From: a virus
DNA: 48,438 bases
Virus record (IMG/VR): IMGVR_UViG_3300009183_000128
Span: 1-48,438 of that record
Direction: 5' to 3' (one strand)
Numbering within the stretch: the first letter of the stretch is position 1; each line of letters opens with the position of its first letter. The position numbers and the translations under genes are program-made. Shown here piece after piece: positions 1,254-16,476 of this stretch. Under the pieces are notes generated by a model. It was given only the letters and a program-made list of their open reading frames with translations. It made no database searches and was not told the DNA's origin.

Positions 1254-3284
1254 ATGTCAGATATCTTTTCTTTTCGTTTGTCAGATGAGTTTGTAAATAA
1301 ATATACTAACGTACCAGCCCCATTTGGCTTTTCAGATGCTGGATCAAACTCTTTAGGTGAGATTACTTTTATACGCACTTATTCTCGTATGAAAGAAGAC
1401 GGTACAAAAGAAAGATGGCATGAGGTTTGTAAGCGGGTAATTGAAGGAATGTATTCAGTACAAAAGAATCACGCTAAAGACAATCGTCTGCCTTGGAATG
1501 ATAATAAGGCTCAAAAGTCTGCTCAAGAAGCATATGAGCGTATGTTTAATTTAAAGTGGACTCCACCAGGTAGAGGTCTTTGGGCATTTGGAACTCCAAT
1601 GACTATGGAAAAACGTAACTCTGCTTCGCTTCAAAACTGTGCAATGGTTTCTACTCGTGATATTGATCGTAATGATCCAGGAGCATTATTTGCTTGGGTT
1701 ATGGATGCACTAATGCTTGGTATAGGAGTTGGTTTTGATACCGTTGGTCAAGACAAAGAAATGTCTATTTATGCCCCAACAGAACCAGAAAATGTGTGGG
1801 ATATTCCAGATACTCGTGAGGGCTGGGTAGATTCTGTAAGAATGCTCTTAAACTCATACCTACGCCCTAATCAGGCTATACAGAAGTTTAACTATGACCT
1901 TATCCGTCCTCTAGGTGCCCCTATAAAAGGCTTTGGAGGGGTCGCTAGCGGTCCAGCACCACTCATTGCACTACATGACAAGATAGATAGAGTAATTGGC
2001 GGTAGATCAGGAGAAAAACTTGACTCTCGTGCAATAGTAGACATTGTAAATCTTATTGGTACATGTGTTGTTTCTGGGAATGTTCGTCGTTCTGCTACCT
2101 TGGCTTTAGGGTTATCAGGAGATGATGATTTTATTAATCTTAAGAATCCAGAGGTTTTTCCAGATCGTAATTCATTTGATCCAGCAAAACCAGGATGGGC
2201 ATGGATGTCAAACAACTCAATCTCTGCAGAAGTAGGAACAAAGTATGAAGATTATGTTGATTTAATTTCAAATAATGGAGAGCCAGGATTTATTTGGTTA
2301 GATGTTGCTAGAGATTATGGAAGGTTAGCAGATGCTGCAGACTACAAAGATTCTCGTGTTATGGGATTTAACCCTTGCGCTGAACAGCCATTAGAGAGTT
2401 ATGAATTATGCACTCTTGTAGAAGTTCACTTAAATAGACATGATGATAAAGAAGACTTTCTTCGTACATTAAAGTTTGCCTACCTATATGGTAAAACTGT
2501 AACGCTTATGCCAACACATTGGCAAACCACAAATGGAATCATGCAACGTAATCGTCGTATTGGAACATCTCTTACTGGTATTGCATCTTTTGCAGATACT
2601 AAAGGTATGCCAACAATGCGTCAATGGATGGATGAAGGGTATCAAAAGATTCGTTCATACGATCATACCTATTCAGAATGGTTATGTGTACGTGAGTCAA
2701 TTCGTGTAACTACCGTCAAACCTTCAGGATCTGTTTCACTATTATCTGGTGCAACACCAGGAGTTCATTGGGGTCCAGGAGGAGAATTCTATCTTCGTGC
2801 TATAAGGTTTGGTAATACAGATCCAATGATGCATTTATTTAAAGCGGCAGGGTATAAAATTGAAGATGACGTAGTATCAGCAAACACTTCAGTAGTATAT
2901 TTCCCAGTAGCATCTGGACATCCTCGTTCTGAAAAAGATGTAAGTCTTTTTGAAAAGATTGGTTTGGCTGCTACTGCTCAAAAGTATTGGTCTGATAATG
3001 GAGTATCTGTAACTTTATCATTTGACAAGGAATCTGAGACTAAGCATATTGCTCCAGCATTACACATGTATGAAGGTCAATTAAAAGCAGTTTCATTTCT
3101 GCCGATGGGTAATAAAACTTATCCTCAACAACCATATACAAATATTACAAGAGAAGAATATAATTCTTACGTTGGCAAAATTGGTAAAATTGATTGGTCG
3201 GCTATCTATGATGGCAAGGATAATCTTGACGCAGAGTCTGAAAAGTATTGCTCAACAGACGCTTGCGAAATTAAATTATACTAG
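1254..3284 (+). CDS. nrdJ: Adenosylcobalamin-dependent (class II) ribonucleotide reductase
   Basis: Reduces ribonucleotides to deoxyribonucleotides for phage DNA synthesis, using adenosylcobalamin as radical source. The 676-residue protein shows the active-site pattern of the monomeric class II family: C129 in an NCAMVST context, the N373-P-C375-A-E377 motif, C386 eleven residues after C375, and a C-terminal redox pair C666/C671 in CSTDACEIKLY. The spacings (11 and 5) match those of the Lactobacillus-type reductase. PPGRGLW at 104-110 is another family signature. No activase, glutaredoxin or thioredoxin gene is seen, so reduction of the C-terminal cysteines probably relies on the host. The gene sits between two virion genes, with a terminator and promoter in front and another promoter after it, like an inserted cassette. 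Its Shine-Dalgarno sequence is weak. Confidence 0.95.
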   Translation: MSDIFSFRLSDEFVNKYTNVPAPFGFSDAGSNSLGEITFIRTYSRMKEDGTKERWHEVCKRVIEGMYSVQKNHAKDNRLPWNDNKAQKSAQEAYERMFNLKWTPPGRGLWAFGTPMTMEKRNSASLQNCAMVSTRDIDRNDPGALFAWVMDALMLGIGVGFDTVGQDKEMSIYAPTEPENVWDIPDTREGWVDSVRMLLNSYLRPNQAIQKFNYDLIRPLGAPIKGFGGVASGPAPLIALHDKIDRVIGGRSGEKLDSRAIVDIVNLIGTCVVSGNVRRSATLALGLSGDDDFINLKNPEVFPDRNSFDPAKPGWAWMSNNSISAEVGTKYEDYVDLISNNGEPGFIWLDVARDYGRLADAADYKDSRVMGFNPCAEQPLESYELCTLVEVHLNRHDDKEDFLRTLKFAYLYGKTVTLMPTHWQTTNGIMQRNRRIGTSLTGIASFADTKGMPTMRQWMDEGYQKIRSYDHTYSEWLCVRESIRVTTVKPSGSVSLLSGATPGVHWGPGGEFYLRAIRFGNTDPMMHLFKAAGYKIEDDVVSANTSVVYFPVASGHPRSEKDVSLFEKIGLAATAQKYWSDNGVSVTLSFDKESETKHIAPALHMYEGQLKAVSFLPMGNKTYPQQPYTNITREEYNSYVGKIGKIDWSAIYDGKDNLDAESEKYCSTDACEIKLY

Positions 3285-3319: not shown

Positions 3320-6300
3320 ATGGCCAACCCGTCTAACTTATATGCAGAAAAGATATTTTCTGAGCATCCTCTGGCGCTATGGGCTTTGGATCAAACTGTT
3401 GACTATATAAGTTTATTTGATTTAGATTATCAAGATATTCAAAATTTTTGGACGGTAAGTGGGGCAACCGCCTCTTTAGAAACATCAGATGTAGACGCAC
3501 CATTTTCTACAGTAGAAGTAAATAAATTATTAGGAACTGTCCCTGCAGGAGCAACTGCAGATATTGTTTGCATCAGCCCAGAGTTAGTAAACTTTTCAGA
3601 CTTAAATACAGATCTTGGTACATTTTGTGTAGGTGCTCACATATACGTTGACAGCGTACACATAAACTCTATATCTATTGGGTTTGAATACACAGACACA
3701 ACAACAGCAAGTGTAGTTCAAAAATTAAAAACTTATGAAAATCTTACAGAAAATTCTTGGGTTTTCGTTTCACAAACTTCAGAAATAGTCAGTGAGAATA
3801 CAACACTTAGGGTTGTAATAAAAATAACTTCTGAAACTGGTGGAGCAACATCTTCTGACTACTTGTACTATATAAATGGAATTAGTGTTGGTCAATGGTC
3901 TGAAGAATTTAACTATCAATCACTTGGGGTTGTCCCAATATCAATGCCAGCAACAATAGCATTAACTTCAGATCAAGTAATTCCTTCACCAGCCTACGGA
4001 GTGTCTGGAGAAAATGCCTATCATATAGTTTCAGACAATAGTCTTTTTGCAAAAAATACAAGCATACCTCTTGTTTATGGAGCATCAAATATAACAACTC
4101 TTAGAGCAAATCCTAGCGGAGAACCATCTTTAATTGTTCCAGGAAAAGGTTTTTTAAATAAAGTTGGTCAATATAAAGACTATACCGTAGAGTTTTGGGC
4201 AAGAATAAACTCAGACTCTCCTACATCTAAAAAAATATTTGGTCCAATAGCATCAGAAGATGGGGTTTATGTTGATAACGGGTTTCTAACATTAGTAATA
4301 GGTAAAAACTTTTCATCTCATTTTGTTGGAGAGTGGTTTAGACCAATGCTTATTCAGATTAGATTAATTAGGAATGCTGCAAGTTTAATTTTAAATGGAG
4401 AAGAAATTATATCTTTAACAATTGAAACAGATAATCTTGAACTACCAGAAGAGTATAATCAATCAAATAAAAACCAGGACTGGCTAGGATTTTATGCATA
4501 TGATGATATTACTCCAATTGATATAGATTGTGTTGCTATTTATTCTTATCAGGTTCCTATAAATGTAGCAAAAAGAAGATGGGTTTATGGACAAGGAGTT
4601 ATTTCTCCAGAGGGTATTAACTCTTCTTACGGAGGAACATCTGCATTTATTGATTATTCTTTTGCAGATTACACCGCCAACTACAGTTATCCAGATTTTG
4701 CTGAATGGCAACAAGGGTCTTTTGATAATTTAACAACAACAGCAAAAGTTTTAAGAACTCCTGAATACGAACTTCCAGAAATTTTTTTATCAGATAAAAC
4801 TTTAACCGAACTGTATGAAGATAATAAATCAATTCAAAATAGTGTTTCTGGACCAATTGATGATGAAACCTTTATAACCTTTAGGCCTAATAGTTCTTGG
4901 AATACAAAAACTTGCTACCTTAACTTTGATAATTTTAATATTCTAAATACTAAGGTCGATTGTTTTTACGGTGTATTTAGTAATCACAACCTTAACTCTA
5001 ATCAAACTTTATTTAAAATTTATAATTCTTTAAACAATAATTATTTTTCAATTCAGCAAAATCAAAATGTAATTACCTATAACCTATACTATAACGGTGT
5101 CAATCAAGTAATCTATACATCTGAAGTTATTGAATCCCATCAACTATTTTCTGCAGGTATTAATATAGAGTTATTAATAGAAACTTTTGGCGGAAATGTC
5201 TCTACGTTTTTTGGTAGTCGAAATTCACTTAAAGTTTATATAGGTGGAGATGGTTCTTTAAGCAAAACCTTTTTAGGAAAAATGTATTCTGTTGGATTTG
5301 CTACAACAAAAAATACAACCCTTATATCTGATTATTTTAATTCTGAAGGTATAGCAATTTTTGACGACATGTCTGTTTCTGGTATCACAGAAGAAGAGAA
5401 TGCTATTGCATTATTCAATCATTTATCAAGTTACACTCTACTACCTATAGAAAATTATGATTCTTACTTTTTAGATATAGGCGTCTCTGGATCTTGGCAA
5501 GACTATCTCCCGCTTTCTTATTTTGCTCAGTTTGTAACCAATGACGTTGGCAATCAATTTTATGATTTAGATTTTTTACAGTTTAACGTAGGCGTTCCGT
5601 CACCAACATCTTTAATAGAAAATGAAACTGTTTCAGCCTGGACTTACGCAGATTTATATCAAAATTATTTTCAACCAACTCAACAAACATACTATCAGTT
5701 TGACAATCAACTGCTAACTGGATGGAATAATTACGAAGATGCCAATCAAGAGGCTGTAAAAACTTATGAATATGACACCACAGACTCTGCAGTTAGATGT
5801 TATTTAACTTTTCAATATATTGAAGATGGTGCTAACTTATTAGATAGTGATTTTACCATTACTCAACCAGTTTTACGTGACTCCATTATTGATGTAAATG
5901 AATATGAAAATTGGGAAACAACAAAGTTTGAAGTTGTAAATAATGCAATAGTTTATCCAAGTAAAACTGTAGATTTTAATGATCTAGCAATTGTTTATCA
6001 TTTAGAATTTAAAGTACGAGGAATATTACATAAACCAATTCTATTAAATAGACTTCAACTTGCTTCTCAAGCATTTAATGATAACTCGTTTAATCCTGTT
6101 GGAACAAGATTTGGGGTTGACTTATTTCCTTACAAGCGTTCAGGAATCTATTATGACTATAAATCTAAAAATCCTTTTACTATTTATAAAGGCACTACGC
6201 CATATCTTTATTTAACAAAAGACTCTGGAATTCAAGTTCGTGGAGATATTCTTTCTTTAGAAGATCGTGGTATTTCTTTACCAATAAATCAGGCATTGTC

Positions 6301-6955
6301 TTCAGATTATCTTGTTAGTGCAGTACAACTTTGGCTTAGATATTCAGAAGATGAATTTCCACCAGTTCCAACAGAATTGTTTGAGATTATTTACAAGGAA
6401 GATACCTTTAAATTTTACATAGTAGCAGATAGTGACACTGGATCAAGAGCAAGAGTTTTTGCAAAAAGTCTTTCAACTGGTCAAATAGTTGATGATTTTC
6501 AATATTATTGGAATGGTTTAGAAGTTAGAGAGCCAGTCTTTACTTCTAAAGAGTGGGGAGTCCTTGGAATATTTTTTTCTACCGCACTTAATTTTGATGA
6601 ATTTTTAGGATCAATTAATATTAATGGTCCCGTGCTGTTTAATAATGTGGCATACTATCAAGCAAATAATTTACAACAAATTCAGGGAACAGTTACAAGA
6701 CCTTGGCTTAGGGTAAAAACAGAGGATGCCATTAACTTTACATGGTCTTATTGGCAAACAAATAAGACTTGGTATGAAACATTGGTCATAGGGTCATCAA
6801 ACCTGTATGGAGTAAGTCCAGGAGACATCTATCGAGCATACCTAGGCACTAATAAAATAATATTTGATGATGAAAGTGGTTTAAGTGTAGACTCAGACAA
6901 AATGCAAATATATCAAGATGTAACTTGGTCAACGACTGTCGCTTCAGCCCTATAA
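3320..6955 (+). CDS. Very large structural protein with concanavalin/LamG-like regions
   Basis: A 1211-residue protein of mostly predicted beta structure, rich in Asn, Tyr, Ser and Thr, with no signal peptide. Its N-terminus (HPLALWALD) and the segment around residues 285-430 (YTVEFWARI, then SLILNGEEI) resemble LamG/concanavalin-like modules of phage surface proteins. A second such region may lie near residues 540-680. It is preceded by AGGAG and ATG. Its place in the late cluster suggests a virion protein, perhaps a tail or capsid appendage that binds glycans. The 3' end overlaps a TATAAT, and the promoter of the next gene follows at once. The specific role is unknown; the structural assignment is fairly firm. 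Confidence 0.65.
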   Translation: MANPSNLYAEKIFSEHPLALWALDQTVDYISLFDLDYQDIQNFWTVSGATASLETSDVDAPFSTVEVNKLLGTVPAGATADIVCISPELVNFSDLNTDLGTFCVGAHIYVDSVHINSISIGFEYTDTTTASVVQKLKTYENLTENSWVFVSQTSEIVSENTTLRVVIKITSETGGATSSDYLYYINGISVGQWSEEFNYQSLGVVPISMPATIALTSDQVIPSPAYGVSGENAYHIVSDNSLFAKNTSIPLVYGASNITTLRANPSGEPSLIVPGKGFLNKVGQYKDYTVEFWARINSDSPTSKKIFGPIASEDGVYVDNGFLTLVIGKNFSSHFVGEWFRPMLIQIRLIRNAASLILNGEEIISLTIETDNLELPEEYNQSNKNQDWLGFYAYDDITPIDIDCVAIYSYQVPINVAKRRWVYGQGVISPEGINSSYGGTSAFIDYSFADYTANYSYPDFAEWQQGSFDNLTTTAKVLRTPEYELPEIFLSDKTLTELYEDNKSIQNSVSGPIDDETFITFRPNSSWNTKTCYLNFDNFNILNTKVDCFYGVFSNHNLNSNQTLFKIYNSLNNNYFSIQQNQNVITYNLYYNGVNQVIYTSEVIESHQLFSAGINIELLIETFGGNVSTFFGSRNSLKVYIGGDGSLSKTFLGKMYSVGFATTKNTTLISDYFNSEGIAIFDDMSVSGITEEENAIALFNHLSSYTLLPIENYDSYFLDIGVSGSWQDYLPLSYFAQFVTNDVGNQFYDLDFLQFNVGVPSPTSLIENETVSAWTYADLYQNYFQPTQQTYYQFDNQLLTGWNNYEDANQEAVKTYEYDTTDSAVRCYLTFQYIEDGANLLDSDFTITQPVLRDSIIDVNEYENWETTKFEVVNNAIVYPSKTVDFNDLAIVYHLEFKVRGILHKPILLNRLQLASQAFNDNSFNPVGTRFGVDLFPYKRSGIYYDYKSKNPFTIYKGTTPYLYLTKDSGIQVRGDILSLEDRGISLPINQALSSDYLVSAVQLWLRYSEDEFPPVPTELFEIIYKEDTFKFYIVADSDTGSRARVFAKSLSTGQIVDDFQYYWNGLEVREPVFTSKEWGVLGIFFSTALNFDEFLGSININGPVLFNNVAYYQANNLQQIQGTVTRPWLRVKTEDAINFTWSYWQTNKTWYETLVIGSSNLYGVSPGDIYRAYLGTNKIIFDDESGLSVDSDKMQIYQDVTWSTTVASAL

Positions 6956-6966: not shown

Positions 6967-6973
6967 GATGGTT

Positions 6974-7345
6974 ATGAATAACGATATTCTTAAAAAAGTT
7001 GGTAATGTCCGACGCAAAGTAATAGAAAAAGACTACAATTGGGGTCTTTACGTGTACAAAAAGTCAGATGGTTCATGGTTTACAGATGGCTCTGGCAGCA
7101 TATTAAACATACCAGCAGAACGTGGTGATATTACAAAAATTTCAGAATTAAAAAAAGTTGCCATTCATTACGGTGATGACGGTGAAGGAAGTGCAGTATT
7201 TGTTCCTGGACTTACAAGAATTAGCGAGGAAGAGCATTCTGAACAACTAGATAGAATGAAGAATGGCTTAATTCCTTCCATGAATGATCATGGTGCTTGG
7301 GTAGCAGCACGACAAACCTATGATAAGTATGGTAGCAATGAGTGA
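6974..7345 (+). CDS. Small phage protein upstream of the portal, function unknown
   Basis: A 123-residue, mostly polar protein I do not recognise as a named family. An upstream in-frame ATG at 6968 would touch the -10 box (6961-6966), so I prefer the ATG at 6974. No Shine-Dalgarno sequence precedes it, which fits a leaderless messenger. It contains a WGLYVYKKSDGSWF segment that looks like a beta hairpin and a charged C-terminal region. It overlaps the start of the portal gene by a few bases, implying translational coupling and a role in head assembly or packaging, but this is inferred from position only. Confidence 0.7.
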   Translation: MNNDILKKVGNVRRKVIEKDYNWGLYVYKKSDGSWFTDGSGSILNIPAERGDITKISELKKVAIHYGDDGEGSAVFVPGLTRISEEEHSEQLDRMKNGLIPSMNDHGAWVAARQTYDKYGSNE

Positions 7346-14692: not shown

Positions 14693-15325
14693 ATGCCATA
14701 TAGCCGTGGTACGTCGAACAACATTATCGTTGGTGCAGCAGCACTTTTTGTTTGCGACACAACTTTAACTCCAGCAACCCTGGAAGCATTTGATGCAAGT
14801 GAGTCTTTTAAAGATACACTTACAGCAGACGCTGCATACGACAACGTAGGTTATACAATGAACGGTCTTGAATTACAGTTCCAACCAGATTTCGGTGAAG
14901 TCCAGGTAGATCAGGTTCTTGACGTTGCTAGACTATTTAAGCAAGGCATGCAAGTAAATCTTGCAACAGCCTTTGCCGAAGCAACTTTAGAAAACTTGCT
15001 TCTTGCTCTAGCGTATACTAGCGACAAAATCTCAGGAAACAAAGCAGCATCTACAGGAAGAACATTAAACCTTTCTGCAGGCGATATTGGAGAAGTTCCA
15101 GTAGAGCGTGGATTAGTTGCTGTTGGCCCAGGAACTGGAAACCCAGTAACTGCAGCCGATGTTGAAAGAGTTTACACAGCATACCGTGCTTTGTCAATTG
15201 AAAACGTAACTGTATCAGCAAAGCGTGATGAGGCTTCAATGTTTGAAGTATCATTCCGTTTATTGCCAGAAGATACATCAGGATCTTACGGTAAAATCGT
15301 AGATCGCACATACGGTCAATCATAA
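14693..15325 (+). CDS. Major tail tube protein
   Basis: Stacks in rings to make the non-contractile tail tube. The 210-residue size, the position between the connector genes and the chaperones, the own promoter and the strong terminator right after all fit. The sequence starts MPYSRGTSNNIIVG and contains ELQFQPDFGEVQVDQVLD and FEVSFRLLPEDTSGSYG, typical of beta-sandwich tube subunits. AGAGG at 14680-14684 gives a good ribosome site. C-ending codons such as AAC and GAC are frequent, as in the capsid gene, consistent with high expression. Confidence 0.8.
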   Translation: MPYSRGTSNNIIVGAAALFVCDTTLTPATLEAFDASESFKDTLTADAAYDNVGYTMNGLELQFQPDFGEVQVDQVLDVARLFKQGMQVNLATAFAEATLENLLLALAYTSDKISGNKAASTGRTLNLSAGDIGEVPVERGLVAVGPGTGNPVTAADVERVYTAYRALSIENVTVSAKRDEASMFEVSFRLLPEDTSGSYGKIVDRTYGQS

Positions 15326-15348
15326 TCTAAATTCAGATTAAACAAATA

Positions 15349-15374
15349 CCCACTTCTTCGGAGGTGGGTTTTTT
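15349..15374 (+). terminator. Intrinsic terminator with a UUCG tetraloop
   Basis: CCCACTTC (15349-15356) pairs with GAGGTGGG (15361-15368), with one G-U pair, around a TTCG loop and before six Ts. The UUCG loop is unusually stable. It lies between the tail tube and chaperone genes. Confidence 0.9.
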
Positions 15375-15384
15375 GTTGTGTCTG

Positions 15385-15393
15385 TGATAGAAT
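15385..15393 (+). promoter_or_regulatory. Extended -10 promoter giving a leaderless long chaperone
   Basis: TGATAGAAT ends at 15393, so transcription should begin near 15400, one or two bases before the ATG at 15402. No Shine-Dalgarno sequence could fit in such a leader. Confidence 0.65.
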
Positions 15394-15401
15394 AGAATTC
15401 T

Positions 15402-16097
15402 ATGGCAACTACAATATATAAAAGTGATATAGTCTATTTATTTGATGGGACAGAACTAGAAATAATACCATTAAAAATAAAGTATCTTCGTGAGTTTATG
15501 TTGACATTTAATAATATTAAAAACACAAAAAATGATGATGACGCAATTGGTATATTAATAGAATGTGTTAGAATCTGTATGAAACAATACTATCCTAAAA
15601 TTTCAGGTACTGTTAAGAATGTTGAGGACAGTGTAGATATGCCCACTGTCTATAAAATACTAGATGCCGCCGCTGGCATTAAGATTAACAAAAAGTCAGA
15701 AGAACCAGTAAAGGATCAAGCAGTTGGTAGTGGTCAAACCTGGGAAACCCTAGACCTTGCAAAACTAGAAGCAGAGGTATTTTTGCTCGGTATTTGGAAA
15801 GACTACCAAGAGTTAGAAACTTCCTTATCAATGCCAGAGTTAATGGCAACCTTAGAGGTAATTAGAGAATTAGATTATACAGAAAAAAAATTCTTGGCAG
15901 CAATTCAAGGGGTGGACCTAGACAAAGAATCAAATAAAGATAAAGGTCAAAAGGAGTGGGAAGATATGAAAGCAAGAGTTTTTAGCAAAGGAAAAACTGT
16001 TGACGGCAACGATATTTTAGCATTACAAGGACCTAATGCACAGAAAGCAGGGTTTGGTATAGGTATGGGTTTGGATTACGAAGATCTAACAAAATAA
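15402..16097 (+). CDS. Tail assembly chaperone, long form (G-T-like)
   Basis: Chaperone that holds the tape measure protein while the tube polymerises. The 231-residue protein has an N-terminal domain (residues 1-95) clearly homologous to the whole of the following gene, sharing MATT, LIECV, an MxQYxP element and PTVYKI. Its extra C-terminal part (about residues 96-231), with KDYQELETSLSMPELMATLE, corresponds in placement to the T extension of lambda gpGT. It is therefore a complete long form made without a frameshift. The start appears leaderless, which may keep expression low. It reads through to a promoter for the short form. Confidence 0.8.
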   Translation: MATTIYKSDIVYLFDGTELEIIPLKIKYLREFMLTFNNIKNTKNDDDAIGILIECVRICMKQYYPKISGTVKNVEDSVDMPTVYKILDAAAGIKINKKSEEPVKDQAVGSGQTWETLDLAKLEAEVFLLGIWKDYQELETSLSMPELMATLEVIRELDYTEKKFLAAIQGVDLDKESNKDKGQKEWEDMKARVFSKGKTVDGNDILALQGPNAQKAGFGIGMGLDYEDLTK

Positions 16098-16105
16098 CTT
16101 CCCTA

Positions 16106-16114
16106 TGCTATAAT
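16106..16114 (+). promoter_or_regulatory. Extended -10 promoter before the short chaperone
   Basis: TGCTATAAT at 16106-16114; transcription would start near 16121. A strong AGGAGG (16130-16135) follows, 8 bases before the ATG at 16144. Confidence 0.75.
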
Positions 16115-16143
16115 TGACATAGCCTATATAGGAGGATACACAA

Positions 16144-16476
16144 ATGGCAACAACAGTACACGAGGGTGAAGAACTTGTTCTCATGGACGGCACAAAAATT
16201 AAGGTACGCTCACTTAAGATTTCTTTGCTTCGTCCATTTATGAAAAAGTTTGAGCAGGTAGCAGGGGTAGCAGAAGATAACGATAAGTCAATGACTCTTC
16301 TTATTGAGTGCGTACAAATTGCTATGGAGCAGTACAATCCAGACCTGTCTAAAGATATTAGTAAACTAGAAGAGGTCTTAGACCTTCCAACAGTTTATAA
16401 AATTATTGAAGCCGCTTCTGGAGTTAAGTTAGCAGATGCAAACGCTCTTTTAAATACAGTGCTTGCAAACAACTAA
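16144..16476 (+). CDS. Tail assembly chaperone, short form (G-like)
   Basis: A 110-residue protein paralogous to the N-terminal domain of the upstream long chaperone (about 40 percent identical by eye over 95 residues). It has the full domain but no T-like extension. Unlike the long form it has a strong ribosome site and a normal leader, so it is probably made in larger amounts, as G is relative to GT. It ends 22 bases before the tape measure gene. Near its end, bases 16449-16455 form a canonical slippery heptamer in the right frame, but a -1 shift would add only about 18 residues. Confidence 0.8.
   Translation: MATTVHEGEELVLMDGTKIKVRSLKISLLRPFMKKFEQVAGVAEDNDKSMTLLIECVQIAMEQYNPDLSKDISKLEEVLDLPTVYKIIEAASGVKLADANALLNTVLANN

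Follow-up and report, generated by a model that had tools for sequence, protein, structure and literature searches.

Frameshifting in tail assembly chaperone genes is widely conserved in long-tailed phages. The question raised by the locus described here is how the short form of the chaperone (G) and the long form (GT) are supplied, and in what ratio, when each has a gene of its own. The locus lies in the window, which is the whole stretch of DNA that was analyzed, an IMG/VR virus record of 48,438 bases. An earlier note on this DNA claimed that two adjacent chaperone genes stand in place of one frameshifted gene, and that the short form could be made in excess without frameshifting. The reading we favor, with a probability of about 0.8, is that an ancestral frameshift gene for G and GT was duplicated, that one copy was fixed as GT and the other encodes G only, and that the ratio of the products is set by initiation.

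Layout of the locus

The features of the locus and its neighbors are as follows.

14693–15325, + strand: major tail protein gene, upstream neighbor (PHROG 2175, "protein with Ig domain", E 7e-32; further profile PHROG 885, "major tail protein", E 0.015)
15348–15374, + strand: terminator-like hairpin and T run (hairpin 15348–15369, 9 bp stem, 4 nt loop)
15385–15393, + strand: extended −10 of the long gene, TGaTAGAAT (last T 9 nt before the A of the ATG)
15402–16097, + strand: long tail assembly chaperone gene, GT-like, 231 aa, G and T domains fused in frame
15402–15689, + strand: G-like N domain of the long gene, residues 1–96 (PHROG 10504 at 1–100; BLASTP to the short protein)
15690–15740, + strand: linker of the long gene, residues about 97–113, read in frame, no in-frame XXXYYYZ
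15741–16094, + strand: T-like domain of the long gene, residues 114–231 (PHROG 10474 at 131–204)
16086–16114, + strand: promoter-like site of the short gene (CTAACA, 17 nt, TATAAT; −10 at 16109–16114)
16130–16135, + strand: Shine-Dalgarno (SD) sequence AGGAGG of the short gene
16144–16476, + strand: short tail assembly chaperone gene, G-like only, 110 aa
16499–23974, + strand: tape measure protein gene, downstream neighbor, 2491 aa

The two chaperone reading frames, of 231 and 110 residues with the long one first, were found where the earlier note had placed them. The order of elements is major tail protein gene, hairpin, extended −10, long gene, promoter-like site, AGGAGG, short gene, and tape measure gene. 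The pair is flanked by the genes for the major tail protein and the tape measure protein, as is the chaperone gene in the fetched phage relatives, and the gene at 14693–15325 is syntenic with the annotated major tail protein genes of Coruscant, Circinus, Moab, and NiceHouse. The first 833 residues of the tape measure protein were scanned and matched PHROG 10030 (E 6e-98) and 16 more tape-measure profiles; the gene also has a match to Pfam PhageMin_Tail. It lies directly 3' of the short gene, with no T ORF between them.

A single BLASTP comparison of the long and short proteins gave 41 identical residues of 96 (43%) with one gap (E = 3e-28), close to the 40 percent or so that had been claimed for the first 95 residues. 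PHROG 10504 is common to both proteins, and PHROG 10474 was matched by the long protein too. Both profiles are labeled as unknown function, and as they are currently the best PHROGs of the two chaperone genes, naming these genes is a gain for annotation. The pair shares an N domain, to which the longer product adds a T domain, as in chaperones of the gpG/gpGT type; judged by its sequence, the short gene duplicates the G part.

The terminator-like hairpin, which was absent from the earlier note, follows the major tail protein gene and precedes the long chaperone gene, and the fold z-score for 15326–15401 was −5.45. The extended −10 and the long-gene ATG are separated by 8 nt that contain no SD core. 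Read from this −10 element, the long transcript would begin at the ATG or no more than a few bases from it and would be leaderless, as had been proposed. The proposal that the short gene has its own promoter and a strong AGGAGG site also held: TGC precedes its TATAAT (TGcTATAAT, 16106–16114), and the promoter-like site overlaps the 3' end of the long gene, in a region where the number of promoter-like sites is no greater than in shuffles.

Relatives that probably frameshift

The long protein matched 130 of 50,697 phage records in tblastn searches (127 Streptomyces and 3 Rhodococcus), all at less than 60% identity, and the short protein matched 127 records at one place per record. Aligned directly by tblastn, the short protein and the Streptomyces chaperone genes were 38.9–43.2% identical in the 60 matches listed of 127. 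All eight phage regions that were fetched are frameshifters. In the five Streptomyces regions (four annotated, Ankus not), one chaperone gene is succeeded by another ORF, which lies in the −1 frame; the three Rhodococcus regions share this layout, annotated in two of them as a joined gene. The annotations name a tail assembly chaperone in Coruscant, Circinus, Moab, NiceHouse, and Francesca, with the gene given as two joined pieces in NiceHouse and Francesca, and the homologues of Samisti12 and Trina are labeled "hypothetical protein". The T domain of the window's long gene aligns with the −1 frame of the Streptomyces phages and is 45% identical to the Circinus T.

The Stanwilliamsviridae (Streptomyces phages Coruscant, Samisti12, Circinus, and Moab, to which we add the unclassified Ankus) resemble the window in having homologous G and T domains, a chaperone likewise located between the major tail and tape measure genes, and, on visual inspection, a G gene preceded by a terminator-like hairpin, a −10, and in most cases an SD. 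They differ in that T lies in the −1 frame relative to a lone G gene and the overlap carries CCCAAAT or CCCGGAA; the searches found no further place for G in them. Homologous domains at the same gene place were found in the Rhodococcus Trinavirus phages (NiceHouse and Trina) and in Rhodococcus phage Francesca, which differ from the window in having GGGAAAA at the overlap and, in NiceHouse and Francesca, an annotated joined gene. The linker at 15690–15740 is the place of the slip heptamer and the −1 overlap in these frameshifting relatives.

When the G/T overlap was examined in 45 distinct junctions, 31 contained a canonical in-frame XXXYYYZ and 14 contained the imperfect CCCGGAA. The heptamers CCCAAAT, CCCAAAC, CCCAAAA, GGGAAAC, and GGGAAAA were among those in the junctions printed. 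From sequence and annotation we infer that these relatives frameshift (FRAMESHIFTERS look like FRAMESHIFTERS). One of the frameshifters, L286, has an in-frame ATG 24 nt upstream of the G start and 8 nt behind a TGATATACT −10 (L286:2650–2700), and this single gene may be started at two places, one leaderless and one later; no in-frame upstream start was seen in the other 12 frameshifters printed.

Distribution of the two-gene arrangement

Loci were collected from seven scans of viral contigs and from the eight phage regions, and were classified by G and T profiles built from the window and phage sequences. This gave 474 loci (465 from viral contigs, 8 phage regions, and the window), after the window's own copies, L001 and L002, were dropped. 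Because no more than 80 loci were kept per scan and some contigs were fetched more than once, counts among the 474 are not prevalences. A fused long gene followed by a separate short gene was found in 395 of the loci listed (243 distinct DNA sequences), that is, in the window and 394 further loci, and a single G with T in the −1 frame in 67 (45 distinct). Eleven loci at contig ends had a fused gene only (7), G only (3), or T then G (1). The remaining locus, L132, was counted apart as broken; its reading-frame break in T is located beside a run of T (L132:3600–3640) and may be a sequencing error. An earlier count of 314 loci had given 251 fused plus short, 55 frameshifters, 5 fused only, 2 G only, none with T then G, and 1 broken. 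Intermediates having a frameshifted G/T pair and a second G were absent from the 474 loci listed, within the fetched flanks.

The search of related phages for the same pair, which the earlier note had suggested, thus found it as a conserved trait of one clade, a large set of viruses that appear to be uncultured and probably infect actinobacteria. The chaperone and portal relatives point to a host of the window virus in Actinobacteria: the window portal protein was 42.6–45.1% identical to those of Streptomyces phages in six matches listed of 127, and 45.8% identical to that of Trina over 78% of the query. Two scans of genome contigs for cellular copies or a host link gave 277 and 55 pattern matches, with no relatives among them.

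Start signals across the clade

The upstream regions of the 395 two-gene loci, with duplicates collapsed, gave 210 distinct upstream pairs; three loci in which no start codon lay close to the expected position, and four with less than 100 nt upstream, were left out of the counts. An SD core was defined as AGGA, GGAG, or GAGG within −20 to −1, and a leaderless-type −10 as a match of at least 5/6 with its last T at −13 to −4. For the long genes, none of the 210 had an SD core, 187 had a −10 ending 4–13 nt before the start, and 186 had an extended −10 at this place. The remaining 23 fell below 5/6, and all 23 have TGGTA[AG]ACT at the same place. For the short genes, an SD core was present in 210/210 and a five-base core in 200/210, and an extended, exact TATAAT was located at −35 to −22 in 192/210, so that the promoter and SD of the window's short gene are kept clade-wide. 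The start codon was ATG in 391 of 392 long genes and 385 of 392 short genes.

Dinucleotide shuffles of an earlier set of 125 distinct upstream pairs served as controls. The leaderless-type extended −10 was found in 119 of 125 long genes vs. 0.5% of shuffles; the four-base SD core was found in 125/125 short and 0/125 long genes, compared with 17–18% of shuffles; and a terminator-like hairpin preceded the long gene in 123 of 125 distinct relatives, compared with 4 of 125 shuffles. The conservation of most upstream columns was only moderate.

The single G gene of 39 distinct frameshifters had an SD in 33, an upstream −10 (−45 to −18) in 35, and a leaderless-type −10 in none. The short gene therefore resembles the ancestral type of control, and the control of the long gene is new.

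Codon usage pointed in the same direction as the start signals. A codon score was trained on five window genes, with the capsid and tail tube genes set against the portal gene, the tape measure gene, and the ORF at 3320–6955; short genes of less than 90 codons, long genes of less than 200 codons, and rows with N were left out of this and the rate tests described below. The score of the short gene exceeded that of the long N domain in 58/58 representatives and that of T in 57/58, although these representatives are related sequences and 58/58 does not amount to 58 independent tests. The major tail protein scored above the tape measure protein in all 53 representatives in which both were found. 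With a simpler NNC/NNY measure, the short gene exceeded the long in only 42/58.

These results bear on the view that the two proteins are a chaperone pair whose ratio depends mostly on protein stability or on a regulator, the split in start signals being a by-product of the insertion of the duplicate. In its favor, leaderless genes can be well translated in actinobacteria. However, with the SD asymmetry present in every distinct relative and the codon usage leaning the same way, we consider this view unlikely.

Reading of the long gene

The long ORF is open in frame and has no heptamer at the G/T junction, and so lacks the marks of a long form made by programmed frameshift. A different view is that it is a disguised frameshifter, which makes G by a slip and an early stop, and that the short gene is a paralogue with another job. 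In-frame slip-like heptamers do occur in the window's long gene at codons 43, 162, and 223, and an in-frame XXXYYYZ within codons 88–118 was found in 17 of 124 distinct long genes. None of the three in the window is at the junction, however, where all 45 frameshifter junctions had either the canonical or the CCCGGAA form, and the A run of codon 162 was rejected as a conserved slip site because the codons there differ among relatives. The start signals of the short gene, moreover, are of the ancestral type, its C-terminal tail aligns with the G tail of the frameshifters in several rows (a reading by eye), and it is under purifying selection. Median pairwise dN/dS (122 loci, pairs with dS of 0.2–1.2) was 0.22 for the long N domain, 0.13 for T, and 0.13 for the short gene, and therefore no part is decaying. 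Taken together, these observations make a disguised frameshifter very improbable.

AAGGAG before an ATG near residue 189 of the window's long protein suggested that a C-terminal fragment might be translated from a start inside the gene. This was rejected; the site was recognized in 149 of 210 rows, and 5 of the 149 have AGGAG.

Protein models and profiles

AlphaFold2 models had a pLDDT of 62.8 for the long protein and 75.5 for the short protein. Foldseek gave no significant match for either model. In a second structure comparison the first row for the short model was 2ob9 (HK97 tail assembly chaperone, gp13), with Z 4.3 and 89 residues aligned at an rmsd of 5.4, tied with unrelated chains; this agrees with a gpG-like fold but does not prove it. 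Neither protein had a Pfam or NCBIfam match above the cut-off, and a PDB sequence search gave nothing relevant for the pair. Although these profile and fold results leave room for the idea that one of the pair is not a tail chaperone, the short protein being, for example, an unrelated small helical protein or a decayed copy, the homology searches found clearly homologous N domains where the earlier note had allowed for an unrelated partner, and these, the direct tblastn matches of the short protein to Streptomyces chaperones, and its dN/dS of 0.13 make the idea scarcely credible.

Origin of the pair

A tree of joined G and T columns, with the Rhodococcus phages as root, covered 33 frameshifters and 57 two-gene viruses; the latter formed one clade (99/97) nested among the frameshifters. 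In the sister and outgroup lineages G is a single gene and T lies in the −1 frame, which agrees with the claim that two genes have taken the place of one frameshifted gene. In a tree of T only, the two-gene clade was weakly supported (56/82).

Short proteins of less than 95 aa and rows with X were left out of the first N-domain tree, which was thinned to 64 pairs. The long copies formed one group (97/91) and the short copies another (99/97), on few columns and with long branches. A second N-domain tree again grouped the long copies (100/98) and the short copies (96/71), and placed the frameshifting lineages L286, L214, and L260 beside the short clade, not outside both copies (98/93). Forcing the long and short copies into one clade was not rejected (AU p 0.348). 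Mean identity was 0.58 for the long N domain vs. 0.69 for the short protein; because the long N domain evolves faster, the placement of these three lineages likely results from rate or attraction. From the trees the split looks like one event; as an alternative to this simplest order, the duplication may have been older, with later loss. What is traceable here is an event in which frameshifting was replaced by duplication and division of labor, with frameshifting sisters persisting just outside the branch.

Proposed control of the G:GT ratio

Under the reading that we favor, a single ancestral gene, which gave G, or GT by −1 frameshift, would have been duplicated; one copy would have been fixed in frame as GT (the long gene), and the other would have kept G only (the short gene). 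The G:GT ratio would then be set by initiation. Lying behind a terminator-like hairpin and presumably leaderless, the long gene would be translated well only from transcripts begun at its own promoter, and readthrough transcripts from the tail tube gene, transcripts from the long-gene promoter, and transcripts from the short-gene promoter would all feed the SD-led short gene. Since the short gene would be translatable from every transcript that crosses it, and has a consensus −10 of its own and a strong SD, G would be expected in excess. The mechanism put forward in the earlier note, excess of the short form without frameshifting, is thus well supported by the sequence evidence.

A narrower claim is that the mode of initiation, leaderless behind a terminator for one gene and a strong SD with a consensus −10 for the other, replaces frameshifting in setting the dose of G and GT, and did so once, from a frameshifting ancestor. 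We consider this somewhat probable. If true, the split in initiation mode has been kept through the deep divergence of the clade. Leaderless and SD-led initiation may respond differently to ribosome conditions, and therefore the ratio could be tunable by the state of the host. Because the leaderless/SD split is consistent, the two genes also allow a side-by-side test of whether initiation mode can serve phages to control dosage.

Comparison with known systems

By analogy with lambda and TP901-1, G would coat the tape measure protein, and GT would use its T domain to recruit the major tail protein. T4-like phages are contractile-tailed and belong to another lineage. In some of them one short gene and one longer fusion gene are reported instead of frameshifting, in the available text of PMC10885494, citing Vladimirov et al. 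2022; as reported, they resemble the window in having a separate short gene and a fused long gene, and they differ in lineage and in tail type. Because these phages are reported to lack the frameshift, it is usual but not universal, and the pair described here is a variant and not a frameshifter of the lambda type.

The gpG and gpGT of lambda and TP901-1 resemble the pair in sharing the G part, with the T part in the long form only, and differ in that their two forms are made by −1 frameshift, according to the portions available of PMC5009743 and PMC4493119. The G:GT ratio in lambda is given as 30:1 (PMC5009743). A permanent gpG-gpT fusion in TP901-1 yields particles that look complete and are not infectious (PMC4493119), so a fused GT is expected to need a separate G. 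In contrast to TP901-1, phages of the clade carry a G-T fusion naturally and have free G from its own gene. They are a natural experiment on the purpose of the frameshift, which could be a fixed ratio or merely two products.

Leaderless mRNAs have been predicted at other promoters of Cluster O mycobacteriophages (available text of PMC4351075). The literature searched, composed mostly of sources other than subscription papers and in part of excerpts, held no description of the clade's pair or of a leaderless chaperone gene. The two-gene kind of arrangement is known; what is new, within that literature, is this clade, a switch from frameshifters that can be traced, and the conservation of the leaderless/SD split.

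Other genes of the window

Three genes elsewhere in the window were observed in passing. The gene at 1254–3284 resembles a B12-dependent ribonucleotide reductase, with clear alpha and insertion domains and a weak match in the barrel domain. The ORF at 3320–6955 (1211 aa) lies upstream of the portal gene, in a position that might suit a terminase, and had no match in Pfam (E up to 0.1) or PHROG (E up to 0.001). A small gene before the portal gene, at 6968–7345, matched PHROG 9394 (unknown function); its ATG is located 11 nt after a TATAAT with no SD core, and it is possibly a second leaderless gene.
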